Both the position numbers and the translations under genes were made by a program. Below are positions 1 to 40,265 of a DNA stretch of 64,000 nucleotides, piece by piece. The notes under the pieces are model-generated. The model worked only from the letters and a program-made list of their open reading frames with translations. It had not been told where the DNA came from and did no database searches. Each line of letters starts with the position of its first letter. The stretch's first letter is position 1. This DNA comes from Anaerolineales bacterium. Its GTDB lineage: Bacteria > Chloroflexota > Anaerolineae > Aggregatilineales > UBA2796. The stretch spans positions 1 through 64,000 of the forward strand of contig JABTTZ010000005.1 of assembly GCA_015075625.1 (NCBI GenBank), given 5' to 3'.

Positions 1-129
1 CTAGGGGGTGAGGGTCTGTGCCTAAGGTGAGTTATTAATAAGATGTTGCGTGCCATTGTTCTCATCCCTCTCATCCTGCCCCTTTGCAACCACAGGGTAA
101 ACGAAACCACGTGCGTAAGTCTTATTTAG

Positions 130-290
130 AACTTACGCAGTTGAACGTGTTTCCCCCGTATTCATCGAAAGGGGATGTTTGAGGACGAAGCCCACTCAAA
201 CAATGGATTCCCCCTTCTCCCAGTGGGAGAGCAGGTACATACCGAAGGCGGGTCGCAGGGGGATGAGGGCAACTGCGCAACGTCTATTAT
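130..290. repeat. Intergenic repeat B, copy 1 (about 160 bp)
   Basis: This stretch is closely matched by 49664-49824: both begin with TTACGCAGTTGAACGTGTTT and end with a shared GGGCAACTGC..AACGTCTAT segment, with the same order of blocks between. Both copies lie directly upstream of a membrane-protein gene (364 here, 49865 there). A shorter piece of the same family (GGGTACACGCCGAAGGCGGG) occurs near 35470. No convincing coding frame runs through both copies, so I read it as a non-coding dispersed repeat. The preceding 1-129 shows only fragments of similar intergenic sequence (compare 45370-45400) and no gene. Confidence 0.75.
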
Positions 291-363
291 TGTACTCGAC
301 TGGTCGGAAAGACCAGAATAGATCGCACCGCCTTGCTATACACTTACCAGATAGGGGATCACC

Positions 364-1143
364 ATGACCACTGAACGAGATCGCTATGCCGAACGGATGA
401 TGAATCCACCAGCCCCACTGGATCGGAAACGTGTCCTCACCATCGCCTTTATCGCCTTTGTCGTCGTCTTTTTTCTGTGGCAGACGCGAAGTATTATCCT
501 CTACCCGTTTTACCTGCTTGTCACCTACGTTCACGAGATGGGGCATGGCTTGGCGGCAGTTTTTACGGGGGGGCGCTTCGTCAGTTTTCATGTCTACCCC
601 AATGGGGCGGGGGTTGCTTATACGGACGGCGGCAACCAACACCTGATCTTGGTGGCGGGGTATGTGGGAACGGCGCTTTTTGGGGCGATGCTGCTCTACC
701 TCGCCAACCGTGTCCGACGTGTGACGTTGGTGTCCTATGGAATGGCGGCTTTTTTCATCCTCTCTGCGCTCTTTTTTGGCGGTTCGGGCGGCTGGAATAT
801 GATCACCGCAATCACCGCCTTTTTTGCCATTATGATCGGTGTGACGGCAGGGGTAGGGTTCATTGCCCTTGCCCGCTATGGCAACCGCACGGCGAATGTC
901 TTGATTTTGAACACCTTCGCCTTCATCATCGGCTTTAATGTCATCAATGACTTCCTCTACCTGTTTAACAACCAAACCATTGGGATTGACGATATTCCGA
1001 ATGATGCCGCAGCCATGGCAAAACTGACCAGTACTCCTACGGCGTCGTGGATCATTCTTTGGCTGATGATCTCTATTTTGATGATGGGCATCGCCGCGAT
1101 TTACGCTTTTGTAGACCAAAAACAGGCGAGAGTAACTGGTTGA
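364..1143 (+). CDS. M50-type membrane metalloprotease family protein
   Basis: A 259-residue multi-pass membrane protein, hydrophobic almost throughout from residue 24. The zinc-binding motif HEMGH lies at residues 57-61 inside a membrane-proximal segment (TYVHEMGHGLAAVFTGG), the arrangement seen in the M50B group of intramembrane metalloproteases. Around five further hydrophobic segments follow. The family cleaves membrane proteins or is a protease-derived scaffold; which substrate is involved cannot be told. A third zinc ligand (NPDG-type motif) is not obvious, so proteolytic activity is not certain. It stands alone, downstream of intergenic repeat B. The ATG at 364 follows a TAGGGGATCACC context. 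Confidence 0.75.
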   Translation: MTTERDRYAERMMNPPAPLDRKRVLTIAFIAFVVVFFLWQTRSIILYPFYLLVTYVHEMGHGLAAVFTGGRFVSFHVYPNGAGVAYTDGGNQHLILVAGYVGTALFGAMLLYLANRVRRVTLVSYGMAAFFILSALFFGGSGGWNMITAITAFFAIMIGVTAGVGFIALARYGNRTANVLILNTFAFIIGFNVINDFLYLFNNQTIGIDDIPNDAAAMAKLTSTPTASWIILWLMISILMMGIAAIYAFVDQKQARVTG

Positions 1144-1247
1144 GGGGATTTCTCATGGCGTCTTTGTCCTGAGGACAAACCATTTTCCAACCCACTGCCG
1201 ATCATTTTCGCGCTACAATGCAAGGTAGCAAGGTATGAGCGCGTGCG

Positions 1248-3230
1248 ATGACCGTCAAAATTCTGATTGTAGACCCCGATATTTCCTTCAGCGTGCCGAT
1301 CAAGCGGGCGCTAGAGCAGCGCGGTGATTATCGCGTTCATACCTTTGCCAGTGGGCAGCCCGCACTGGAAATGCTTCAACGCGATGCCCACGATGTGGTG
1401 ATCCTTGACGCGGATATTGCCGACATTGCCCTTCCCGCCCTGATCCATGCCATGCGGCGCGTCCAACCCTGGCTGTATGTCATGATCAGCACGACGCCAG
1501 ATCGAGATAAGCCCGCCGTCCGTCCCCTCAATGTGCAAGGGATGATTGCTAAGCCCTACCTTGCCCGCAATCTGATTCATGCCCTAAGTGCGGCGGTGCG
1601 CTGGATCGAAGTGCGCCGCACGGCGACGGGCGGACGCGGGGCAGCCGAGCAACCCCCTAGCGAGCCGCTTCGCACGCTTGCTACCCTAACTATTCCCGAC
1701 GCGCCGCCCTCTCTAGAGGATACGCCGAATCTAGGGAGGAAGCTAACTAGTGGGGCAATCAGCGAGCCGCCCATTCCCGACGACGCCACTGCCCGCGATG
1801 TGTTCCGGCGCACCAGCAAGCCGCTGCCTCCCGAACCGCCCCTTCCCGAAGAGGCGACAACGCCCACCGTGAACGTGGCGGGTCGCACCAGTGATTCCGC
1901 CCCGCCCCCACCAGACAGCCTCCCTGAAATGCCGCCGGAGGAAGCCCAAACGCTGGTGGAGGCGTCCCTTGCAGCGCTGGCATTAGAGATCACCGATGAC
2001 GCCACAATCCCGTTGGAACGTCTGCCAGAGGCATTCGAGAGCAGTTCGGAACACCTTCCGCCGGATGCCCGTCCCACCTTCAACCCCCTAGCGCTTTGGC
2101 AGCACGCCGATGATTTGAATGAGCCAACCCTTGTGGAGGCGCCGCCAACCCTCCCCGCATCCCTTCAGGGTGAGCCTTCCGACGTGCTTGAAGATGACAT
2201 GGCGCGAACCTTCCGCACCCTGATTGGGGAGGAGACTTCCCCCCTACAACCCGTGAGCGATGCCCTGCCCCCAGAGGCTGACATAGCTCATCCGCCGCCA
2301 CCCCCGGCTGATGCGGCAGACGCGCCTGAACCGGTCACTATGTTGGCACGGATGGCGCTTTACCTCACACAGATCACCACCGGCTCAGCAGCGCGGGCAG
2401 CGCTCTTAATTCAGGATGGCAGCCTGATTGCCCAATCGGGCGGGATTTCGGAACGGGACATACGCGGCTGTGTGGCGGATGTTGCAAAGGCGTGGTCAAA
2501 AGGGGCGGCGGGACCATCCCCTGAATCAACTCCGGCAAAACTGAGTTATGTGGAACTGCCAAGCGGTAGCGATTACCTGATGTATTCGGTGCAGACGGTG
2601 GAAGGGATGATCCTTGTCATGCTGTTCCCCGGTGATGTGCCGTTGGGAACGATCCGCAAACAGGCAAGTTCCCTGCGCGGGGCGTTGATCAGCGTCCCTG
2701 ATAGCGCCGAGGCAGTCGAATCTGAGGCAGTCACTGCTGACTCTGAGGCGGCGACGACACTTCCCTCCCGCCCCACAGATATGATTCCGCCCGAAGGGCT
2801 GCGCGAGGCGCTGACCATTGCCTCCCCTCTCGCCAGCACGCCGGAGTCGCCCGCTCTCGCTGCGCCGTCCAGCCCAGAACGCCCCACTGTCCCTTACGCC
2901 GCGTTCACCTTTGTTTGGCTCCCACGCAGCGGCACGCTGAGCGATTATCAGGTGGCAATGCTCCCTACCTGGTTAGAACGGGCGGCGCTGCCGAGGTTTT
3001 GGGATATTGAGAGTGTGCAAGGGCAGCCAACGCACGCGGTGATCCACCTGCGCTTGCCGGAAGGGACATCGCCCTACGAGGCGCGAACGACCCTTCAGCA
3101 AGAAACCGCGCTGAGCGCCGGAGCTGATGATTTTTGGGCAGAGGTCTATTATCTTGTGACGGGGGGGCGGGAGGTGACCCCCCAAGAGGTGGCAAATTTA
3201 TTGGAATTCCACCGCGAGGCGGCGGGGTAA
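1248..3230 (+). CDS. Receiver - roadblock-like - IS200-transposase-fold fusion protein
   Basis: 660 residues in three blocks. Residues 1-120 form a response-regulator receiver domain: acidic pocket at D9/D11, phospho-acceptor D54 in VVILDAD, conserved Lys in the IAKPY segment. Residues 125-360 are a Pro/Glu/Thr-rich low-complexity linker. Residues about 365-480 (LARMALYLTQITTGSAARA..) resemble a roadblock/LC7 fold. The last 110 residues (from YAAFTFVWLPR) resemble the Y1 (IS200/REP-associated) transposase core: the order THAVIH-LRLPEGTSP..FWAEVYYLVTGG matches the HUH strand and the FWxxGY strand, but no Tyr is present where the catalytic one is expected. No output DNA-binding domain of the usual type is present. 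The domain reading of the two C-terminal blocks is by eye and should be tested by profile search. Confidence 0.6.
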   Translation: MTVKILIVDPDISFSVPIKRALEQRGDYRVHTFASGQPALEMLQRDAHDVVILDADIADIALPALIHAMRRVQPWLYVMISTTPDRDKPAVRPLNVQGMIAKPYLARNLIHALSAAVRWIEVRRTATGGRGAAEQPPSEPLRTLATLTIPDAPPSLEDTPNLGRKLTSGAISEPPIPDDATARDVFRRTSKPLPPEPPLPEEATTPTVNVAGRTSDSAPPPPDSLPEMPPEEAQTLVEASLAALALEITDDATIPLERLPEAFESSSEHLPPDARPTFNPLALWQHADDLNEPTLVEAPPTLPASLQGEPSDVLEDDMARTFRTLIGEETSPLQPVSDALPPEADIAHPPPPPADAADAPEPVTMLARMALYLTQITTGSAARAALLIQDGSLIAQSGGISERDIRGCVADVAKAWSKGAAGPSPESTPAKLSYVELPSGSDYLMYSVQTVEGMILVMLFPGDVPLGTIRKQASSLRGALISVPDSAEAVESEAVTADSEAATTLPSRPTDMIPPEGLREALTIASPLASTPESPALAAPSSPERPTVPYAAFTFVWLPRSGTLSDYQVAMLPTWLERAALPRFWDIESVQGQPTHAVIHLRLPEGTSPYEARTTLQQETALSAGADDFWAEVYYLVTGGREVTPQEVANLLEFHREAAG

Positions 3231-3267
3231 CTGTGTTTTAGGGGATTCCGAACCACCTTCTGATCCC

Positions 3268-3624
3268 TCATACCCCCTCATGGGGGATAAGCTCCACCGT
3301 GAGTCCGCTACCCCAACCGTATTTGGCATCCATAAGCGCGGCTATGGCGGAGATCAACGCCGGATCGTCTTCCGGGGGGAGGATGCGCCCCCCCGCCCGT
3401 GTAGGGGGACGATGGGCGGCGTTATCTTCCCGCGTGCCGATGCTGAAGGTGACCAGTGGGTTTGCCATAATATTGCGCACCCAATGCGCTTTATCGCCCG
3501 ACTCGGCAACCATGTAATAACACCCCTCATGTTCGACAAACCAAATTTCGATCTGGCGCGGTTCGCCAGAGGTGCGCCCTGTCGTTGTTAGGTAGAGAAA
3601 AACAGAATTAGCATCGCTTGTCAT
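3268..3624 (-). CDS. Deazaflavin-dependent nitroreductase-family protein
   Basis: A 118-residue protein with the split-barrel look of the DDN/DUF385 family: LTTTGRTSGEPRQIEIWFVEHEGCYYMVAE followed by HWVRNIMANPLVTFSIG. The TTGRxSG..R segment and the NP-V segment are typical of members that bind reduced coenzyme F420 (or another flavin) and reduce diverse substrates. Length matches the family. It is transcribed towards the preceding receiver gene and separated from it by only about 40 bp. The substrate cannot be inferred. F420 use is family knowledge, not shown by this window, which contains no F420 biosynthesis gene. Confidence 0.7.
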   Translation of the reverse strand: MTSDANSVFLYLTTTGRTSGEPRQIEIWFVEHEGCYYMVAESGDKAHWVRNIMANPLVTFSIGTREDNAAHRPPTRAGGRILPPEDDPALISAIAALMDAKYGWGSGLTVELIPHEGV

Positions 3625-3666
3625 GGATCAGCCCTCATCCTATCCGTTTGCCAAACTGTGGCGTAT

Positions 3667-3751
3667 TTAGGGTGTGTTGAATCTGTAATCAGAAAATGCG
3701 CCCATGCCCCATGCCGTGAGTCCCGTGCTAAAGCACGAGGCTGAAAGCAGG
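3667..3751. repeat. REP/MITE-family fragment
   Basis: Begins TTAGGGTGTGTTGAA and ends with a palindrome around CCGTGCTAAAGCACG followed by GGCTGAAAGCAG. The same order (terminal TAGGGTGTGTTGA, then a CTAAAG-centred palindrome, then GGCTgaaAGCAG) occurs at 9811-9882 and 39421-39490. This copy is more diverged and lacks the second terminal repeat. The remainder of the 3625-3826 gap holds no gene I can support. Confidence 0.65.
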
Positions 3752-3826
3752 GGAAGAGAAATCCATACCCTACCGTAGGGACTCCCTCTAGGGCGTCCGC
3801 TTTACCCTGTGTGGTTGACCATTCGG

Positions 3827-4780
3827 TCACAGTTTGCGCACGATGGTCACTTCGCAAGGGGGGAGCGTTTCCCCGCCCTCTAGGGTGACCGTCAAACGTA
3901 AGAGATAGCGCCCTTCAAACAAATTGCTGATCGTTGCTCCCTTTGCCAAAACGCCCTCTGTAATGGGCTTGCGGATGGGCGTTTGCAGCACCCACCGCGG
4001 ACGTGTGATGGAGGCACTATCAAGGTATTCCACCTCGAGAAGATAGCTAAAAAAGTTCTCTGGATCGGCGCTCCCTCGAATATCAAAAGCGTCAAAATTG
4101 AGCGCTGCCCCTTCAACAGGGAAAGTGATTGTTGCGTGAGGGTTGGTACACGTTGGTTTGGGGGCGTTCGCTTCTACGGTTGCCACGCGATAGACAAAGG
4201 CGGCGGTAATGATGGCGGGCGGAACATTGGTGGGGGAGGATGTGGGGATGCGGGCTTGCGCCTCTTGAATACGGGTTATCCCCACAAGCCCAATAAACAC
4301 AAAATTGACGATCAACACAAGGGCAAGAAGATAGACCACATAGCGGTATGGACTGGTCATGATGTTACGGAATGCCGTCCGGTAGACCGCCCCCGTACTG
4401 GTTGTGGTGCGGTTATGCTGACGCCACGATTCAAAAGCAGCCTCGGCGTCAAAGGTGGGGGGTGGGGTTTCGCCGCCCGTTGGGGCATGAGAGCGTGTCC
4501 AATAATCATCGCCCTGATAAGGTTCGTTGGGATACACCCGCCGCCGCTGACGGTCATAGGCGGCACGTTGGAGCGGATCGGTCAGGACATCATAGGCGTC
4601 ATTCAGAAGGCGGAACTGCTCAGTTGCCCACACTTCCCGTCCTGGGTTTAGGTCGGGGTGGACGGCTTTTGCCTGCTGCCGATAGGCGCGATGGATCATC
4701 TCAATGGGCGCATCGGTGGGGATATTCAGCCGAGCGTAGAAATCGTTATAGAGGTCGTAGCGTATGATTTTCCGTGCCAT
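3827..4780 (-). CDS. Membrane-anchored J-domain protein
   Basis: Starting at the Met at 4780 (MARKIIRYDLYNDFYARL) the product has 317 residues. Residues 9-80 are a J domain with the HPD motif at 41-43 and the usual flanking helices (AYRQQAKAVHPDLNP, LLNDAYDVLTDPLQRAAYD), so it should stimulate a DnaK-type ATPase on the cytoplasmic face. A linker is followed by one membrane helix (about 146-168) and an extracytoplasmic C-terminal region with beta-rich character (ITFPVEGAALNFDAFDIRGSAD) resembling Ig/FN3-like modules. This is not a canonical DnaJ: the Gly-rich and zinc-finger regions are absent. An upstream in-frame Met (4816) would add 12 residues before the J domain and is less likely. Confidence 0.8.
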   Translation of the reverse strand: MARKIIRYDLYNDFYARLNIPTDAPIEMIHRAYRQQAKAVHPDLNPGREVWATEQFRLLNDAYDVLTDPLQRAAYDRQRRRVYPNEPYQGDDYWTRSHAPTGGETPPPTFDAEAAFESWRQHNRTTTSTGAVYRTAFRNIMTSPYRYVVYLLALVLIVNFVFIGLVGITRIQEAQARIPTSSPTNVPPAIITAAFVYRVATVEANAPKPTCTNPHATITFPVEGAALNFDAFDIRGSADPENFFSYLLEVEYLDSASITRPRWVLQTPIRKPITEGVLAKGATISNLFEGRYLLRLTVTLEGGETLPPCEVTIVRKL

Positions 4781-4957
4781 AGGGGAGAGTCTGACACAGA
4801 TTATCCCAAGAGGCAATTAAAAAGGAGCGCAAACAGTCCTCATAACAGGCGTATTCTCCCCTACAAGGAGGGGTGTTGTTGGAGAAAATCCGGCGGGAAT
4901 AGGGTTGTACGATAAAATCCCCTTATTCCAGTATTGGCTATCCCATCAAGGCGCACC

Positions 4958-6226
4958 ATGAACCTTCAACCACGCACGTCTTCTCGTCTCTGGATACGTC
5001 TGCTCTTTCTTGCTCTCGGTTACATTGCTTTCATCTTGCTTGGCTCGCCAGAGGGCTTGCGCGGTGTGGCATGGACGCCCATTCAAGCAGAGTTCAAAGT
5101 AACCCCCGACTTTTTGGGGGTTTTGCTGTTTCCGCCAACGGTTGGGTACTTGCTCTCCAGTTTTTTCAGCGGGCGGGTGACTGGGCTGTTGGGGACGGGG
5201 CGGGCGTTGGCATGTGCCGCCGCGCTGATGGGCATGGGGCTGGTTGGCTACGGCGTAGCCCCAACATGGCTTGCTATCGTCAGCATCGGCTTTGCCATCG
5301 GGTTTGGGGGGGGGATCATCGATGCCGGACTGAACACCTTTCTTGCCGCCCACTATCACCCTAGCCTGCTCTATTTGCTCCATGCCTTTTTTGGCGTGGG
5401 GACGACGCTCAGCCCGCTGTTCATCACCGATATTCTACGGCGGGGGGAATCCTGGCGGCTGGCGTATCAACTTGTCGGTGGGGCAGCATTTGTGCTGGCG
5501 GTTATTTTTCTGCTCACCAGCCCCTTGTGGAATCGCTTTGAGCGACAACCAGCAAAAACGAAGGCGGATGCTTCTGCCGTCCCCGTCGCACGTACCGCGC
5601 TTTTCGCAACGCTCCGCCTCCCCATGACGTGGTTGGGGATCGTCCTTTTTTTCATCTATGCCGGTGTGGAAGGGACGGTGGGGGCATGGGCATTTTCGGT
5701 GTTTACCGCACAAGGGGTGAGTGAGGTGAACGCTGGCGCTTGGCTAAGTACCTATTGGGGGACGTTCACACTGGGGCGCGTTTTGTCCATTGGGGTGGCG
5801 CAGGTTCTCTCTACCACAACACTTTTGCGCGGGGCGATGATCAGCGTCATTGGCGGGGCGCTGCTGTTTGTGTGGAGTCCTTCGCCAGAGGTGGGCTTGG
5901 CGGGCGTCGTCCTCATTGGGTTGTTCACCGCCCCCGTCTTTCCGGCACTCATCGCCAACACTGGAGATCGCGTGGGGAACAGCCATGCTCCTAACGCGAT
6001 TGGTTTTCAGGTGGCAGCAGCGGGCTTAGGGTTGGCAGTTATGCCCGGCTTGGCGGGCTGGCTGGCAGTCAACACGCCGGGAAAGTTCACCTCAATTTCC
6101 CTCTCCGTATTGGTTGTTGCTCTCTTGATTTATGCCCTTTACGAATGGACACTCCTTTTGGCGCGGCGAAAAGGAAACGCAGGGGAAGGCGTTGAGGATG
6201 CAACCTCAACCAGCCGGAGTACGTAG
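4958..6226 (+). CDS. Major facilitator superfamily transporter
   Basis: About 422 residues from the ATG at 4958 with roughly twelve hydrophobic segments in two halves separated by a charged cytoplasmic loop (FERQPAKTKADAS). This is the topology of an MFS permease; the SGRVTGLLGTGRAL segment after the second helix fits the family's loop 2-3 motif. Residues such as DAGLNTFLAAHY in helix 5 resemble the sugar/fucose-permease-like and YbjJ-type branches, but the substrate is unknown. A TTG 24 bp further upstream is the alternative start. It precedes the ABC exporter operon with less than 60 bp to the likely ATPase start, so the genes may be co-transcribed. Confidence 0.8.
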   Translation: MNLQPRTSSRLWIRLLFLALGYIAFILLGSPEGLRGVAWTPIQAEFKVTPDFLGVLLFPPTVGYLLSSFFSGRVTGLLGTGRALACAAALMGMGLVGYGVAPTWLAIVSIGFAIGFGGGIIDAGLNTFLAAHYHPSLLYLLHAFFGVGTTLSPLFITDILRRGESWRLAYQLVGGAAFVLAVIFLLTSPLWNRFERQPAKTKADASAVPVARTALFATLRLPMTWLGIVLFFIYAGVEGTVGAWAFSVFTAQGVSEVNAGAWLSTYWGTFTLGRVLSIGVAQVLSTTTLLRGAMISVIGGALLFVWSPSPEVGLAGVVLIGLFTAPVFPALIANTGDRVGNSHAPNAIGFQVAAAGLGLAVMPGLAGWLAVNTPGKFTSISLSVLVVALLIYALYEWTLLLARRKGNAGEGVEDATSTSRST

Positions 6227-6283
6227 ATGAGACAGGGAACAAGAAGCAGCTCAGATAAACAATTACAGGGAGGAATGCGCAGC

Positions 6284-7228
6284 ATGAGCGCAGAAAACGC
6301 GATTGATGTGCGGGGCGTCACGAAACGCTATGGGACGTTCACCGCTGTGGATGGCATTAGCTTTGAAGTGCGGCGGGGCGAGATTTTCTCCATGTTGGGT
6401 CCGAACGGGGCGGGGAAAACAACAACACTGCGCATGATGTTAGATATCATCAAACCCGACAGCGGGACGATTGCCCTTTTGGGGTCGCCCTTTCATGAAT
6501 CGATGAAGGCGCGGATAGGGTATCTTCCCGAAGAACGCGGGCTATACAAAAATGTGCGCGTCCTTGAACTGCTTGGCTACCTTGGATCGTTGAAAGGGAT
6601 GAAACCCGCCGAGGCGATCCGCAAGGCAGATAAGCTGCTCGATGAGGTGGGTTTGGGGGAGAACAAAAAAAGCAAGATCAGCGAGCTAAGCCGGGGGATG
6701 TCCCAAAAGGTGCAGTTCATTGCCACCATCCTCCACGACCCTGACCTGTTGATCATTGACGAACCGTTTTCCGGTTTAGACCCAGTGAACACGGATATGG
6801 TCAAGGGGATGATCTACCGGATGCGCGATGAAGGGCGCACCGTGATCATGAGCATCCACGAAATGCATCAAGTGGAGGAAATGGCAGACCGCTTGATCAT
6901 GATCAACAAAGGGAAGCGCGTTCTCTATGGGAGCGTTGACGAGGTGCGCGGGCAGTACGCCGAAAACGCGGTGATCATCTCTGGAAAAGGCGATTGGGGA
7001 GCGATCCCAGGCGTGGTCAGCATCCATTCCAATGATGGCGGGCGGGCGGTGACGCTCAAACTGGATGCCGGAGTCACCCCCGATCAGGTCATGCGTTATG
7101 TTGCCGACCAGCCCAATTATTCGGTTACGAGCTTTGCCCGTGCCGTCCCACGCCTAAATGATATTTTCATCCGTGTGGCGGGGGGTGTTCCGGCGACGAA
7201 CGGCGCAGTGCGGGGGGCGGTGCAATGA
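6284..7228 (+). CDS. ABC exporter ATP-binding protein (NatA-like)
   Basis: 314 residues from the ATG at 6284, which sits behind a GGGAGGA ribosome-binding site. Walker A is GPNGAGKT, the signature is LSRGMSQK, Walker B is LLIIDEPFSGLD, and the switch His is in MSIHEMHQ. A C-terminal extension of about 90 residues (AVIISGKGDWGAIPG..) is typical of NatA/DUF4162-type ABC-2 exporter subunits. It should hydrolyse ATP to drive the two permeases encoded next, with which it overlaps by four bases (ATGA). An upstream in-frame Met at 6227 would overlap the MFS stop and lacks a better ribosome-binding site. Confidence 0.9.
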   Translation: MSAENAIDVRGVTKRYGTFTAVDGISFEVRRGEIFSMLGPNGAGKTTTLRMMLDIIKPDSGTIALLGSPFHESMKARIGYLPEERGLYKNVRVLELLGYLGSLKGMKPAEAIRKADKLLDEVGLGENKKSKISELSRGMSQKVQFIATILHDPDLLIIDEPFSGLDPVNTDMVKGMIYRMRDEGRTVIMSIHEMHQVEEMADRLIMINKGKRVLYGSVDEVRGQYAENAVIISGKGDWGAIPGVVSIHSNDGGRAVTLKLDAGVTPDQVMRYVADQPNYSVTSFARAVPRLNDIFIRVAGGVPATNGAVRGAVQ

Positions 7229-8487
7229 ATCTGATCAAACTCATCCGCATCGCCCGCCGCGAATATCTCACCAATTTTCGGCGGCGGTCATTTCTCTTTA
7301 CGATGTTTGGCTTGCCGATCTTCCTCGTCGCTATTTTTCTGATCATCGGGGTGGTGACTACCAGCGCGATTGATAGCATTGACGGGTTTAAACGGATTGG
7401 CGTTGTTGACCAAGCCGGCGTATTCCCCGGAAGGGAAATCCCCGCCCCCTTTGCGCTCTACGAATCCCTTTCGGCAGCCGACGCCGCCCAAAAAAGCGGG
7501 GAAGCAGACGCCTATTACGTGATTCCGGCGGATTACCTGAAAACGGGCATGGTTGAAGCCTATTACAGCCAAGCGAAGGCGCTCAACGATGGGGCGCGGG
7601 ATGCCCTTTTCAAAGCGATCAAGGGCGCACTTGCCACCCGTTTTAACAATCCCGACATTGCCGCCCGTCTGGAAAATCCCGTCGAAAACCTGACCTATTT
7701 CCGGCGGGGGGTGAACGATGCCGTCCCCGAAGCGGCGCTGACGGCGATCTTCCTTGTGCCGTCTATCGTTGGGACGCTCATTTTCATGCTGACGATGACC
7801 AGTTCACAGTTCCTCATGTCGGGGTTGGTGGAAGAAAAAGAAAACCGCATGATGGAAGTGTTCATGACCAGCGCCCGCCCCATCGAGATGATGAGCGGCA
7901 AGCTGCTAGGGATGGGCTTGTTGGGGCTGACTCAGCTTGGTGTGTGGGGACTTTTCGGGCTGGCATACTTGCTCGTGAGCGGTCAGCTTGGGGATATTGG
8001 GAAAATTCTCGCTGCACTGCAACTGACCCCGATCTTCATTTTCGTCACCTTGATCATGACGCTCTTGGGGTATCTGTTCTACGGCTCAATCTTGGCGGGG
8101 ATTGGGGCAACCGTCAACGCCGAAAAAGAAGCGCAGCAGTATGCCACCCTGATCGTCCTCGGTGGGGTTGCACCGTTGGCGCTGGTGATCGTCTTTCTGC
8201 TTGACCCCAACGGCGGGGCGGCGCAACTGATGAGCGTGATCCCCCTAACCGCGCCCATTGCCCTGATCATTCGGCTTTCCTTGGCAACTGTCCCCACCGC
8301 TCACATCCTCTTCAGCATGGGGGTGATGGTTGTCTCGGTGATCGTTGCTATCTATTTTTCGGCGCGGGTGTTCCGCATGGGGATGTTGAATTACGGCAAG
8401 GGCGGCGTTTTTCGTATCCTGCGGCAGGCGGTCTTTGGTGCTCGCACGCCGCGTCTGGTGGAAACCCCTTCGGAGGTGCGTTCATGA
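7225..8487 (+). CDS. ABC-2 family permease, first of a pair
   Basis: 420 residues. An N-terminal membrane helix (RRRSFLFTMFGLPIFLVAIFLIIGVV) is followed by a large extracytoplasmic domain (about 60-180). Five or six membrane helices then begin with the cytoplasmic motif GLVEEKENRMMEVFMTSARPIEMMSGK, characteristic of NatB/ABC-2 type exporters. It overlaps the ATPase gene and the next permease gene by ATGA, so the three are translationally coupled and probably form a heterodimeric-permease exporter. Substrate unknown: sodium or drugs for characterised NatAB relatives, which is only a family analogy. Confidence 0.88.
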   Translation: MNLIKLIRIARREYLTNFRRRSFLFTMFGLPIFLVAIFLIIGVVTTSAIDSIDGFKRIGVVDQAGVFPGREIPAPFALYESLSAADAAQKSGEADAYYVIPADYLKTGMVEAYYSQAKALNDGARDALFKAIKGALATRFNNPDIAARLENPVENLTYFRRGVNDAVPEAALTAIFLVPSIVGTLIFMLTMTSSQFLMSGLVEEKENRMMEVFMTSARPIEMMSGKLLGMGLLGLTQLGVWGLFGLAYLLVSGQLGDIGKILAALQLTPIFIFVTLIMTLLGYLFYGSILAGIGATVNAEKEAQQYATLIVLGGVAPLALVIVFLLDPNGGAAQLMSVIPLTAPIALIIRLSLATVPTAHILFSMGVMVVSVIVAIYFSARVFRMGMLNYGKGGVFRILRQAVFGARTPRLVETPSEVRS

Positions 8488-9737
8488 CGGGCAAATGGTT
8501 CGCTGTGTTCCGCTACGAATTTTTGCGGACGTTCAAACGGCGTAGTTTTCAGTTCCTTGCCTTCGCTGTTCCGCTGCTGCTGATCGTAGGATTCTTCACT
8601 ATCCGAGGGATTCAAGAAGCACGGGCGGCACGGGGAGAAGATGCCCCTAGCGCCCCCGCGGAGGACAGTCCCCTTCAGCGGGCGTTCCTCCCCCTTGGTT
8701 TGGTCGATCTCGCCCATTTGCTCGGCGGGAAAACACCCGCTGGCATGATCGCTTATCCCTCGGAGGAAATAGCCACCAGCGCCTTAGAACAGGGAACGAT
8801 CAGCGGCTATTACGTGATCCACGCCGACTACCTGAAAACAGGGCAGCTTGACCTGTTTTTCGACCAATTCAACCTGAATACCCTGAGTGCAACGGGACTG
8901 CGGACAGCGTTAGCAGAGGCGCTGGTGGCAAAGACGGGACAGAATGTTGATCCGCAGGTGATCACCCGCTTGGGGGAGCGCCGTCCCGCCGTTACCAATA
9001 ACATCCTCCGCGATTCGGGGGACACCCAAAATCAACATGAAGGTGCGGCGCTGATCCTCGTCTATGTCTTTGTCTTGTTCCTCATGTTCAGCACCTTTGG
9101 GACAAGCGCCTACTTGATGCAGAGCGTCGTTGAGGAAAAAGAAAACCGCATGGTGGAAATATTGCTTTCCTCGCTGCGCCCGCGTGAGCTTTTGGCGGGG
9201 AAGTTCATCGCGCTCAGCCTGTTGGGGCTAGTTCAGACCGTCGCTTGGGGCGCAGCCATCCTGATCATCCTCACCCAATTGGGGACGGTCATCCCCGGTG
9301 TGACGATTACGATCTCCACCAACCAGTTAATCGTCCTCGGCATCTTCTTCATCCTCGGCTACCTGCTTTTTTCCTCTGCCTATGCCGCAGTGGGGGCGCT
9401 GGTGACGAACATGCGGGAGGGTCCGCAGCTTGCCGTCGTGGTGACGCTGCCAGCCAGTTTCCCCTTGTACTTCATTCCCATTTTTGTCGCTGCGCCGGGG
9501 GGGCCGCTCGCCATTGGCTTAAGCCTCTTTCCGCTGACCGCGCCGGTGACGATGGTTGCCCGCGCCGCGTTGGGGGAAGTGCCAACCGAACAAGTCATCG
9601 TCAGCGCTGTGATCCTCACGCTGACAGTGGCGGGCTTTGTCCTCTTGGCGGCACGGTTGTTCCGCGTGAACAGCCTCCTTTCGGGGCAAATGCCTAAACT
9701 GCGGGATATTCTGAAATTGGTGCGAGAGAGTGCCTAG
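8484..9737 (+). CDS. ABC-2 family permease, second of a pair
   Basis: 417 residues, same layout as its upstream neighbour: N-terminal helix (SFQFLAFAVPLLLIVGFF), extracytoplasmic domain, and the motif SVVEEKENRMVEILLSSLRPRELLAGK before the membrane bundle. The two permeases share the YYVI-ADYLKTG segment in the outer domain, so they are paralogues that most likely assemble as a heterodimer with the ATPase from 6284. The start overlaps the previous stop by four bases. The gene ends about 70 bp before a REP/MITE-type repeat, which marks the left edge of the cassette array. Confidence 0.88.
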   Translation: MTGKWFAVFRYEFLRTFKRRSFQFLAFAVPLLLIVGFFTIRGIQEARAARGEDAPSAPAEDSPLQRAFLPLGLVDLAHLLGGKTPAGMIAYPSEEIATSALEQGTISGYYVIHADYLKTGQLDLFFDQFNLNTLSATGLRTALAEALVAKTGQNVDPQVITRLGERRPAVTNNILRDSGDTQNQHEGAALILVYVFVLFLMFSTFGTSAYLMQSVVEEKENRMVEILLSSLRPRELLAGKFIALSLLGLVQTVAWGAAILIILTQLGTVIPGVTITISTNQLIVLGIFFILGYLLFSSAYAAVGALVTNMREGPQLAVVVTLPASFPLYFIPIFVAAPGGPLAIGLSLFPLTAPVTMVARAALGEVPTEQVIVSAVILTLTVAGFVLLAARLFRVNSLLSGQMPKLRDILKLVRESA

Positions 9738-9810
9738 ATCAAGGTCTGTTGAGGGTGGTGTAGACTACACAAGGGCAACATGAGGGAGTTTCTCCCTTGC
9801 AGCTTGAATT

Positions 9811-9882
9811 CTAGGGTGTGTTGACATTGTAACCCCAGTGCGCCCGCCGCTAAAGCAGCGGGCTAGGAGTAACCACTTACCT
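9811..9882 (+). repeat. MITE-family end fused to the left edge of the cassette array
   Basis: Starts with CTAGGGTGTGTTGACA, identical to a terminal inverted repeat of the intact-looking element at 39421-39644. It continues with TGTAACCCCAGTG and the palindrome CCGCCGCTAAAGCAGCGGG, which are also shared. The match stops abruptly and is followed without a gap by the Thr/Pro codons of an orphan cassette tag, so this is a truncated or joined copy. Between the permease stop (9737) and here there is only a short possible hairpin. Confidence 0.75.
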
Positions 9883-9996
9883 ACCACCACACCCACCCCG
9901 ACGATGACTCCCGTCACCGCTCCTCCCGGTGGTGGCGGCGAGTGGATGTGGGTCGATGGCGAGTTGATCTTCGTCTGCGGGGTGATTTGGGAGTAG
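9880..9996 (+). pseudogene. Orphan C-terminal tag of a lost B-type gene
   Basis: In one frame this encodes a Thr/Pro linker (TTTPTPTMTPVTAPP), then GGGGEWMWVDGELIFVCGVIWE and a TAG stop at 9994-9996. It is the last 35 or so residues of the B-type proteins ending at 12022, 15143, 17201 and 22395. Everything upstream of the linker is missing and is replaced by the MITE-like repeat ending at 9882. An ATG at 9904 would give only 30 residues, so I treat this as the remnant of a cassette deleted at the left edge of the array. Confidence 0.85.
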
Positions 9997-10140
9997 GGCG
10001 GACGGTGGCGGAGCGTCCGCACGGTGATTATCGTCCGTGCCGATGGGTCGGGGCGCGATGCCCATCCGGGGATGGCGTTCCTCGGTGTCCCCCCGACGTG
10101 GTACGTGCCGGCGCAGGCGCAAGCAACGCCCACGCCTGTG
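9925..10140 (+). repeat. Cassette border repeat R1 (tag, stop, spacer, head)
   Basis: First of three near-identical blocks (see 11950-12162 and 15070-15280). It holds the codons for the C-terminal tag, TAG, a 27-base spacer, GTG, and the codons for the A-type head (MAFLGVPPTWYVPAQ within it). In this copy the spacer contains a hairpin, GCGGACG paired with CGTCCGC, between stop and start. Head and tag are in the same frame, separated by TAG. GC content falls sharply right after the repeat, where the protease part begins. Confidence 0.85.
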
Positions 10141-23074: not shown

Positions 23075-23356
23075 GGTGGATGACCTTTGGTCGGTTTTTT
23101 TTCTTCCATGATGCACTATCACTGTCGCTTTTCAAAAGTTTTAACCAGTTCATTGTCTGACTGCTTGTCAAGATTTATACGTTCAGACATTACATTCTCC
23201 GACGAACCGGGTATTAAAAAATCAAGCCATATGTCTTATATCGTGTTGCGATATAAATCAATGTGTGATTGAATGTATTTTCGGGCGCATTTAGCATAAA
23301 ATGCGGACATCATGTACAGGAAGGCTAAAGACTATACCCGTGAAAAAGAGCATCAT
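23075..23356. other. AT-rich gap without a supportable gene
   Basis: This 280-base stretch between two transposase remnants is visibly more AT-rich than the surrounding genome, includes a T-run at 23094-23101, and has no ORF with convincing content. It is probably decayed insertion-sequence DNA. Confidence 0.5.
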
Positions 23357-23775
23357 ACGTCTGATGTGGAATGAAGTTGACGAAAAGGGGAATGGGTCGC
23401 AAGATTGAAGGTACGCCTACAGTCAATCGGATCCATTCCCATGACAAGGATAGACTTGGAAAGGCTTTTTACTACGATTTATGTGCTGGTGAACGATTGG
23501 TATCAACGGGAAGGACGGGTGTTGTTGAAGGGCAAACCAAGCCCACCAAAATCATCCCCTGCTGGATGCGCTCCTCGCTAGCGCACGCGAGCGTATCGAA
23601 GGTGCCTTTCACCAACTCCAGAACACCGGACGCAACCTTGAGCGCTTACTTGCCAATACTGTGCGTAGCTTGACCGCCCGCCTTACCCTCAAAGTCACTC
23701 ATTTAGTTCTCAAGCATCTGCTCGCCCGTCACTTTGGTTTTGATCTACAAGCCTTTTCCCTTTCACATTAGACGT
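23357..23775 (+). mobile_element. Internally deleted insertion sequence with terminal inverted repeats
   Basis: Left end ACGTCTGATGTGGAA and right end (read inwards) ACGTCTAATGTGAAA match at 13 of 15 positions, giving a 419-bp element. Inside are the first about 45 and last about 65 codons of one transposase (23441-23771) with the centre missing. The same left end, with the same distance to the transposase ATG (83-84 bases), occurs in the decayed copy ending at 41365. No target-site duplication was clear by eye. Confidence 0.8.
23441..23771 (+). pseudogene. Transposase with internal deletion (IS982-like)
   Basis: Starts MTRIDLERLFTTIYVLVNDW and continues to VLLKGKPSPPK. It then jumps to the C-terminal part LDALLASARERIEGAFHQLQ, NTGRNLERLLANTVRS and HLLARHFGFDLQAF before a stop at 23771. 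The two halves are in different places of the usual transposase, so roughly 150-200 codons including the catalytic core are gone. The N-terminal pattern (two-helix LFTTIYVLVxDWY, in the decayed copy followed by RDSELLTVLLA) and the C-terminal ERIEGAFHQLQNTGR pattern are those of IS982-type DDE transposases. Confidence 0.75.
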
Positions 23776-24100
23776 CACGTATAATTCGGTAAAGAAAGTA
23801 TCCACATCTATTGTTCAATTCTTTTGGTGTTGTCTTGGATTGTACATTGGTGATACCTTCTTTTCCTTCCCGGACAAACCTTTTAGCGTTGGGCGTGATG
23901 TCGGTCTGTAACCCCTTAGCCGTTGGGTCGCTCCCGGTTGCGTAATCAGCCGTGTAGGACATGAGAGCATTGGAAGGGGTGATTGTTCCAACTGGCGCAA
24001 TCAATCTCTTTATGCTAAACTCATGGTTTGCTACGTTGTTCTTGCGCTCACTTAGCGAACCATGAAGATTGAAGTTTTTCTTCATCTTAAAATAATACAT
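23768..24100 (-). CDS. Unassigned 110-residue ORF
   Basis: An open frame in the AT-rich gap, ending 8 bp inside the insertion-sequence end. The product (APVGTITPSNALMSY, LQTDITPNAKRFVREG) is mixed in composition and is not an obvious shadow of a gene on the other strand, but I recognise no family. It may be the tail of a gene cut by the insertion sequence, or chance. No ribosome-binding site decides it. Confidence 0.25.
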   Translation of the reverse strand: MYYFKMKKNFNLHGSLSERKNNVANHEFSIKRLIAPVGTITPSNALMSYTADYATGSDPTAKGLQTDITPNAKRFVREGKEGITNVQSKTTPKELNNRCGYFLYRIIRDV

Positions 24101-35270: not shown

Positions 35271-35500
35271 AACAGGGTGTCAAGGGGTGTCGCCCGCCGC
35301 TTTAAGGCGTGTCGGGAAATAGAAAAGGAACATCTGCCAAGAAGGGGTAGACTCAAAAGTGACCAAACTAGGCTGTGGTGACGTTTTTGGTTCAGAACCC
35401 CTATCCCCCCTGCCCCTTTCCCGTAGACAGGGAAAGGGGGAGAGATGCTCTCTGTCTGTTATGGGGAGCGGGTACACGCCGAAGGCGGGTCGCAGGGGGT
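35271..35500. repeat. Rearranged REP/MITE copies and repeat-B fragment
   Basis: It contains the palindrome CGCCCGCCGCTTTAAGGCG (35291-35310). At 35368 is CTAGGCTGTGGTGACGTTTTTGGTTCAGAACCC, a slightly diverged copy of the right end of the element at 39421-39644 in opposite orientation. Finally GGGTACACGCCGAAGGCGGG, part of repeat B, lies near 35468. The 423-base gap between 35123 and 35547 therefore holds only repeats. Confidence 0.65.
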
Positions 35501-39358: not shown

Positions 39359-39420
39359 GGGAAACTTCCTTCAGCACCCGTCACAACCTATCGCCCCCCG
39401 CGAAAAGGCTTGTCCGGGAA

Positions 39421-39644
39421 CTAGGTTGTGTTGACAGTGTAACCCCAGTGATTCCCCCGCTTTAGCGGCGGGCTGAAAGCAGCCACCTCTTTGGGACTTG
39501 AAAGGCATGTAGTGATTTCGTCCCACTTCCTCGCCGCAAACGGAGAGGGGGAATAAAATTGCCCTCATTTCCCCGTGTATGGGGAGTATAGGGAAGGGGG
39601 CGGGGAGATAAGGGTTCTGAACCAAAAATGTCAACACACCCTAG
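39421..39644. repeat. Intact-looking MITE-like element with 16-bp inverted ends
   Basis: The left end is CTAGGTTGTGTTGACA (39421-39436) and the right end, read inwards, is CTAGGGTGTGTTGACA (39629-39644), matching 15 of 16 positions. Between them (224 bp in all) are a REP palindrome centred on CGCTTTAGCGG and a second inverted segment, but no ORF. Left- or right-end fragments of the same element recur at 3667, 9811 and 35368. CTAG lies at both outer ends, perhaps reflecting a CTAG-type target. Confidence 0.8.
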
Positions 39645-39662
39645 CAAGGAAGGATAACCAGT

Positions 39663-40265
39663 ATGGCAATTCAATTTCCGCTGAACATTCGCTTCAAACT
39701 GATGGCGTTTGCGCCGCGTATGTTTGTGACCGATGTCAACGGAGACGATGTGTGCTATGTCTCCCAAAAGGTGATGCGCCTGAAGGAAGACATTCAGGTC
39801 TTTACCGATGATACACGCAGCAAAGAGATTTACCGCATCAAGGCGGATCGGATCATGGATTTTTCGGCAACCTATCACTTCAGCGAATCGGAGAGCAGGC
39901 GGACGTTTGGGGCGGTGAAATCGAAGGGCTGGCGTTCGATCTGGCGGGCAACCTATGAGGTGCTGGATGCCAACGAGAACGAGACCCACCGGATTCAGGA
40001 AGTGAACCCCTGGGTGAAGGTGGGCGATGCGTTGGTCAGCCAGATTCCGTTTGTGAATATGTTCACCGGATATTTCCTTCATCCGAAGTATGCCGCCTAC
40101 AATAGCAAAACGGAACAACCGGTGATGCAGTTGAACAAGGAAGCCGGTTTTTTCGAGGGGCGCTACAGCGTGGAAAAGCTGGATGCAAACCTAACGACGG
40201 ACGAAGAACGCCGTATTCTGCTCAGCTTTATGCTGATGGTGCAGTTCATGCGGCGGCGGGGGTAG
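39663..40265 (+). CDS. LURP-one/Tubby-like family protein
   Basis: 200 residues, beta-rich (FPLNIRFKLMAFAPRMFVTDVNGDDVCYVSQK, SIWRATYEVLDANENETH, GYFLHPKYAAYNS) and without signal peptide. The order of strands and the FxxxLxV..D..G..xxV pattern near the start resemble LURP-one-related/phospholipid scramblase-like domains, a 12-stranded barrel around a buried helix. Its biochemical role in bacteria is unknown. The ATG follows AAGGAAGGATAACC from the MITE end, so the ribosome-binding site lies at the very edge of that element. Confidence 0.6.
   Translation: MAIQFPLNIRFKLMAFAPRMFVTDVNGDDVCYVSQKVMRLKEDIQVFTDDTRSKEIYRIKADRIMDFSATYHFSESESRRTFGAVKSKGWRSIWRATYEVLDANENETHRIQEVNPWVKVGDALVSQIPFVNMFTGYFLHPKYAAYNSKTEQPVMQLNKEAGFFEGRYSVEKLDANLTTDEERRILLSFMLMVQFMRRRG

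Follow-up and report, generated by a model that had tools for sequence, protein, structure and literature searches.

A TA-flanked miniature element with IS5-type ends and a REP-like core, often nested in a second miniature element of an Anaerolineales genome

Introduction

Among described bacterial repeats, BrickBuilt of Porphyromonas gingivalis is presented, in the available text, as a MITE with IS5-family ends and an unrelated repeated interior (PMC4596501). RUP of Streptococcus pneumoniae, in the accessible part of its description, is a 107-bp TA-inserting MITE with 108 copies that was linked to an IS by matching ends (PMC2229807). REP/BIME sequences with RAYT or IS200-like genes appear in the portions at hand as high-copy palindromes arrayed around a Y1 gene (PMC3733652, PMC2817692, PMC3116915), REP palindromes carrying a GTAG tag at one end (PMC3733652). 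For the Tn3 family, the excerpts on TIME mosaic elements (PMC4133298) and TIME-COMPs (PMC13367494) report miniature elements that form mosaic or composite units moving together.

Here, we analysed a window of 64,000 nucleotides (C5:1-64000), the whole stretch of DNA under study, from the genome of an Anaerolineales bacterium (G000; 4.68 Mb in 5 contigs), in which a sequence-only reading had pointed out a MITE-like repeat. We found that this repeat, MITE-A, has the tested features of an IS5-family MITE and thus is a known kind of element in an unusual nesting. From the sequence signatures taken as a whole, it is very probable that MITE-A was moved in trans by an IS5-family transposase, became nested, in several copies, in a second miniature element, MITE-B, and is now near-immobile.

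Results

The MITE-A copy in the window

Together with its target bases, the window copy of MITE-A occupies 39421..39644 on the plus strand, the element proper lying at about 39424-39641. It is flanked by TA at 39422-39423 and 39642-39643 in the arrangement C-TA ... TA-G and measures 222 bp from TA to TA. The 16-bp inverted ends that had been read from the letters are borne out: CTAGGTTGTGTTGACA at 39421-39436 and CTAGGGTGTGTTGACA at 39629-39644 (minus strand) are identical in 15 of 16 bases, and paired ends of this kind were recovered genome-wide. Each end is composed of 13 bp plus the TA/CTAG target. The left terminal inverted repeat, GGTTGTGTTGACA (39424..39436, plus strand), matches the IS5-type ISs of loci L025 and L178; the right one, GGGTGTGTTGACA, occupies 39629..39641, its letters read on the minus strand. 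With up to 3 mismatches allowed, the window contains 5 matches to the end pattern where 0.31 would be expected, and none of 100 shuffles gave as many.

No ORF of at least 90 aa lies inside the window copy; a mechanical minus-strand frame of 218 aa enters it and is mostly antisense to the downstream LURP-one-like gene. Short, gene-less, present in many copies and bounded by TA-flanked inverted ends, the element is a non-autonomous MITE, as had been proposed. Its interior holds a REP-like core (39449..39508, plus strand) with two hairpins at about 39454-39472 and 39483-39500, and this core is common to many loci without MITE-A ends.

As single-stranded DNA, the window copy folds at -46.7 kcal/mol (z = -4.65), beating all 200 of 200 shuffles. 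Does this fold represent a conserved RNA? In a 17-copy alignment, 2 pairs out of 34 showed covariation, for which the term amounted to +0.7, and an Rfam search with MITE-A gave no match. Due to this near-absent covariation support and the lack of an Rfam match, we rejected a maintained RNA structure; the folding looks like that of inherited palindromes. A role as promoter or terminator was likewise rejected, since no sigma-70-like site was found and the single weak terminator-like site lies within the downstream gene, outside the element.

The downstream gene (39663..40265, plus strand, 200 aa) can be assigned to the LURP-one type only weakly, as PF04525 scores 16.4 bits, below the cut-off of 24.5. 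MITE-A had been suggested to supply part of its ribosome-binding region, but the Shine-Dalgarno-like AAGGAAGG at 39646..39653 (plus strand), the likely ribosome-binding site, lies just past the element end at 39644 and hence outside MITE-A, which therefore does not supply it. An orthologous empty site at this gene was sought in 10 relatives, none of which yielded the gene.

The MITE-A family in the genome

Genome-wide, 38 ends match CTAGGGTGTGTTGACA with at most 1 mismatch (control 0), and the degenerate end TAGGNTNTGTTGACR, at the same tolerance, gives 142 matches in 4.68 Mb (control 7). We scanned 95 stretches, 91 fetched around ends or BLAST hits and 4 from the window, and scored as a paired copy two inward-facing ends with at most 3 summed mismatches. 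In this way, 24 stretches, the window copy included, proved to be paired copies in the right orientation; in 57 others, an end had no partner within 420 bp, and the remaining 14, with weaker end pairs only, were left out of the paired set. Counting copies with both ends had been suggested as a check on the element, with few copies or a lack of pairs speaking against it, and the 24 copies answer it in favour of the MITE. Most of the 24 are 190-246 bp long, the extremes being 94 and 360 bp. Pairwise identity is 67-98% in an alignment of 17 of the 24 (A2), with a median of 81%, and no other copy exceeds 75% identity to the one in the window, so that the amplification seems not to be a recent one.

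Of the 24 paired copies, 19 have a TA at each end. Among these 19, the base inside TA is G in all on the left and C in 18 on the right. The base outside TA, which was unselected because the search pattern began at the T of TA, is a Y on the left in 18 (12 C and 6 T, with 1 G besides) and an R on the right in 17 (15 G and 2 A, with 2 C besides). This fits insertion with a TA duplication in a YTAR target, mostly CTAG, as read from the flanking bases.

MITE-A was detected in none of 40 relatives, same genus included, with at most 19 candidates scored per genome; this distribution hence gives no dating of its movement or origin. An exact search for a 21-base end pattern in a named genome collection, from which our own or very near genomes were possibly left out, gave 2 contigs, where a rough estimate would lead one to expect about 1.

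IS5-family elements with the same ends

Which transposase would recognise such ends? The sequence-only reading had suggested looking for a transposase gene with matching ends, and IS5-family ISs of this description were found as a deleted copy in the own genome and in relatives: the same ends occur at L025, at L178 and in further relatives. The own IS (L025:824-1516, about 693 bp) has the ends TTAGGTTGTGTTGGCA and CTAGGTTGTGTTGACA, the same as MITE-A. Its DUF4096 and DDE_Tnp_1 domains both score above cut-off, a frameshift separates its two frames, and it is N-terminally deleted, since the initial 41 positions of DUF4096 are absent. At that similarity, the own genome yielded no further IS, nor was an intact one with matching ends found; mobilisation in trans is what the matching ends point to.

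Related transposases are carried by 8 of the 40 relatives, and in a class-wide sample relatives of the transposase at E <= 1e-30 occur in 21 of 396 genomes, our own included. In G030, of the same order, an 822-bp IS has the ends CTAGGTTCTGTTGACA..TGTCAACACAACCTAG, within the variation of MITE-A ends, and its ORF1 scores 114.9 bits against the NCBIfam IS5 model NF033580 (cut-off 110). PF13340 and PF01609 are over cut-off in the transposase of this parent type. We then examined 30 loci, the own IS among them, with 45-75% protein identity to the transposase of the 822-bp IS, for terminal repeats bounded by TA, leaving MITE-A out of consideration. Such repeats were found in 17 loci and in 13 there were none; with the exception of L280, all of the 17 agree with the MITE-A end in 11-15 of 15 bases. 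The own IS is among these 16, in which two ISs are counted by two loci each. Beyond the ends, MITE-A and the ISs share no sequence of note.

An IS630/Tc1-type transposase, which also duplicates TA, would be a rival mover of MITE-A, as the available text on RUP connects TA targets with IS630-linked MITEs too (PMC2229807). We hold it to be extremely improbable, since all ISs found with matching terminal repeats, in searches that covered IS5-type relatives, encode DUF4096/DDE_Tnp_1-type proteins.

Two IS5-like genes elsewhere in the own genome, L064 and L065, are unlikely partners because their ends differ (TAGAGGGTGTTATG and TAGCGGGTGTTATG), and for L063 matching ends were not found. More distant DUF4096-type ISs (L181, L182, L183, L187, L188 and L195; genomes G004, G013 and G029) have ends starting CTAGGGYGTGT, in which the outer part persists and the inner part differs.

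The REP-like core inside and outside MITE-A

Many loci have a match to bases 29-88 of the element and lack the rest of MITE-A. The core string GCAGCCACCCCTTCGGGGCTTG, with up to 3 mismatches, has 178 copies in the genome and none in the control, many of them outside the MITE-A family, which upholds the internal REP palindrome of the sequence-only reading as a REP-like core. When 30 exact core copies were examined, a MITE-A end lay within 260 bp in 18 (2 in shuffled controls) and was absent in 12. Several of these 12 belong to a third, miniature-element-like family, C, in which the core is enclosed by a different end sequence. Members of family C (L199, L201, L217, L218 and L224, centred at about 1430-1590) have ends resembling GTACNNCCACAAA and the core reversed.

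The genome gives four Y1 transposase matches, and one of these genes, L262:1447-1866 with 139 aa, is surrounded by hairpin units that form an array. The array extends over L262:900-3170 (C1 about 1.726 Mb) and contains 15 core matches with 3-5 mismatches and 7 matches to the first hairpin with 0 mismatches, several at 149-bp spacing; over 63 bases, the MITE-A core matches the array units at 82-84%. Together with the high copy number of the core, this arrangement speaks for a primarily REP/BIME-type repeat dispersed by a Y1 (IS200/IS605-like) enzyme, in which the CTAG ends would be incidental flanks. Against such an origin, the ends are paired, inverted, TA-flanked and matched by IS5-type ISs, and in 4 of the 24 paired copies the ends are present but the core is missing, which makes the core dispensable cargo. 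Moreover, the L262 protein is of the IS200/IS605 type (NCBIfam, 63.6 bits against a cut-off of 55) and reaches only 31.2 bits with REP_Tyr_transpos, below the cut-off of 80, so that "REP-like" is a fair name and REP in the RAYT sense does not apply. We thus consider spread of MITE-A by the Y1 enzyme very unlikely and retain the IS5-family transposase as its mover.

Nesting in MITE-B

The flanks of several MITE-A copies are themselves repeated and form the two arms of a second miniature element, MITE-B. Its ends, AGGCKTGTCCGG, have 44 matches with up to 2 mismatches against 10 in the control, a weaker contrast than that of MITE-A. Unnested copies of MITE-B are present at L252, L253 and L223, and in seven composites (L068, L077, L107, L135, L160, L174 and L245) MITE-A stands between both B ends. 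When joined, the composite flanks match unnested B copies over about 20-30 bases only. No parent IS was identified for MITE-B.

Of 61 loosely defined pairs of B ends, 7 have identical 4-base flanks on the outside (shuffled mean 2.0; at least 7 in 7 of 10,000 shuffles). The seven are the composites L068, L135, L174 and L245, the B copies L252 and L253, and L106, a B copy that holds part of an A. Judging from their perfect outer 4-bp duplications, these four composites probably moved as units. Several composites (L068, L077, L107, L160, L174, L237 and L239) have the same change of CTAGG to CTTGG at an A end, as expected if one founder composite had been copied through the ends of B.

In the window, both the 39421..39644 copy and a MITE-A fragment at 35368 adjoin remnants of MITE-B, which the sequence-only reading had missed. 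A B end, AAAAGGCTTGTCCGGGAACTA (39403..39423, plus strand), adjoins the window copy at the same junction as in composites such as L068: AAAAGGCTTGTCCGGGAAC is directly on its left and no B arm is on its right. The intact-looking copy is hence not a clean insertion into unique DNA. The fragment (35368..35480, minus strand, inner limit approximate) is the right-hand part of a MITE-A nested in MITE-B, and the enclosing B starts with the left end TTAAGGCGTGTCGGGA at 35302..35317 (plus strand). Elsewhere in the window, an IS-like gene remnant at 23300-23886 has an end carrying the MITE-B type repeat AAAAGGTTTGTCCGGG and no Pfam match over cut-off.

Fragments in a duplicated segment

Two further end fragments had been noted, and all three, including the one at 35368, are real. 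A degenerate left end of MITE-A lies at 3667..3752 and a left end with the first hairpin at 9811..9877 (both on the plus strand, inner limits approximate). Both are inside window positions 1-10129, a segment of 10.1 kb from the contig end that is 99.3% identical to C1:1455668-1465748 (L296), and were copied along with it. Past the segment end, in the cassette region, the two copies diverge. A fragment had been taken to mark the left edge of the cassette array, so that the element might take part in rearrangement; the 9811 fragment does adjoin the cassette region, but it lies about 320 bp inside the duplication end. As it is present in both copies with homology on either side, it predates the duplication and was copied with it, and a part in rearrangement is not shown.

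Could MITE-A have been copied mainly via repeat recombination or larger duplications, instead of transposition? The two duplicated fragments, the many unpaired ends and the interiors common to families with different ends would agree with such copying. The paired copies, however, mostly have unrelated flanks and a common TA-bounded end, and the composites have matching outer 4-bp duplications. This makes recombination highly improbable as the main route, and we keep to transposition by an IS5-family enzyme.

Discussion

We propose that an IS5-family transposase of the two-ORF frameshift type (DUF4096 plus DDE_Tnp_1) would mobilise MITE-A in trans by binding the 13-bp ends GGKTSTGTTGACA, a reaction read from its signatures in the DNA. 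Insertion at YTAR sites, mostly CTAG, would duplicate TA, as the flanks of the copies suggest. Only the ends of MITE-A would derive from the IS, and the interior would be unrelated cargo, usually with the REP-like hairpin pair, which also exists in other settings. Several copies may then have entered CTAG inside MITE-B, and the outer duplications suggest that a transposase belonging to B subsequently moved the composites. The window copy would be an A beside one B end, the remainder of B having been lost. As the only such IS found in the genome is N-terminally deleted and the copies are 67-98% alike, the family is probably immobile or nearly so by now.

The analysis adds to the earlier reading the nesting of A in B and a REP-like core that reaches beyond MITE-A and is arrayed around an IS200-type gene. 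It puts a name to the transposase family of a large repeat family of this genome, and it offers a clear case of three-layer parasitic DNA, a REP-like hairpin in an IS5-type MITE in another MITE, with signatures of composite movement. The most interesting point is that interiors are common to families with different ends. We speculate, tentatively and with doubt prevailing, that at least three miniature families with unrelated ends (A, B and C) share or exchange interior hairpin modules, the REP-like repeat being cargo of DDE transposases. If this were true, MITEs would evolve by swapping interiors between end sets, the spread of REP sequences would not depend on a Y1 enzyme alone, and a repeat classification based on interiors alone would misassign transposases.

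How does this locus compare with known systems? A narrow open-access search on nested bacterial MITEs, IS5-type TA MITEs and MITEs of the phylum returned no A-in-B case in the text available, and the word 'nested' is absent from the accessible part of the review PMC10969869. The closest case is BrickBuilt, which, in the available description, likewise has IS5-type ends around an unrelated repeated interior; that interior is a 23-bp minisatellite, whereas MITE-A holds hairpins including the REP-like core, and its duplications are inconsistent, whereas those of MITE-A are consistently TA in YTAR (PMC4596501). RUP resembles MITE-A in its TA insertion, its IS with matching ends and its entry into other mobile elements, but its IS is of the IS630 type and not the IS5 type, and the accessible text on RUP mentions no REP core (PMC2229807). 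As in the REP/BIME systems, as far as the available accounts describe them, palindromic units are arrayed around a Y1 gene, and a similar unit forms the core of MITE-A; unlike the REP/BIME of RAYT genes, the Y1 gene here scores as IS200/IS605, and DDE-type MITEs carry the core as well. Finally, the TIME elements, in the excerpts at hand, are like A-in-B in that miniature elements form composites that move together, but those composites have two copies of one element at their borders, while here A lies inside B, an element of a different family (PMC4133298, PMC13367494).
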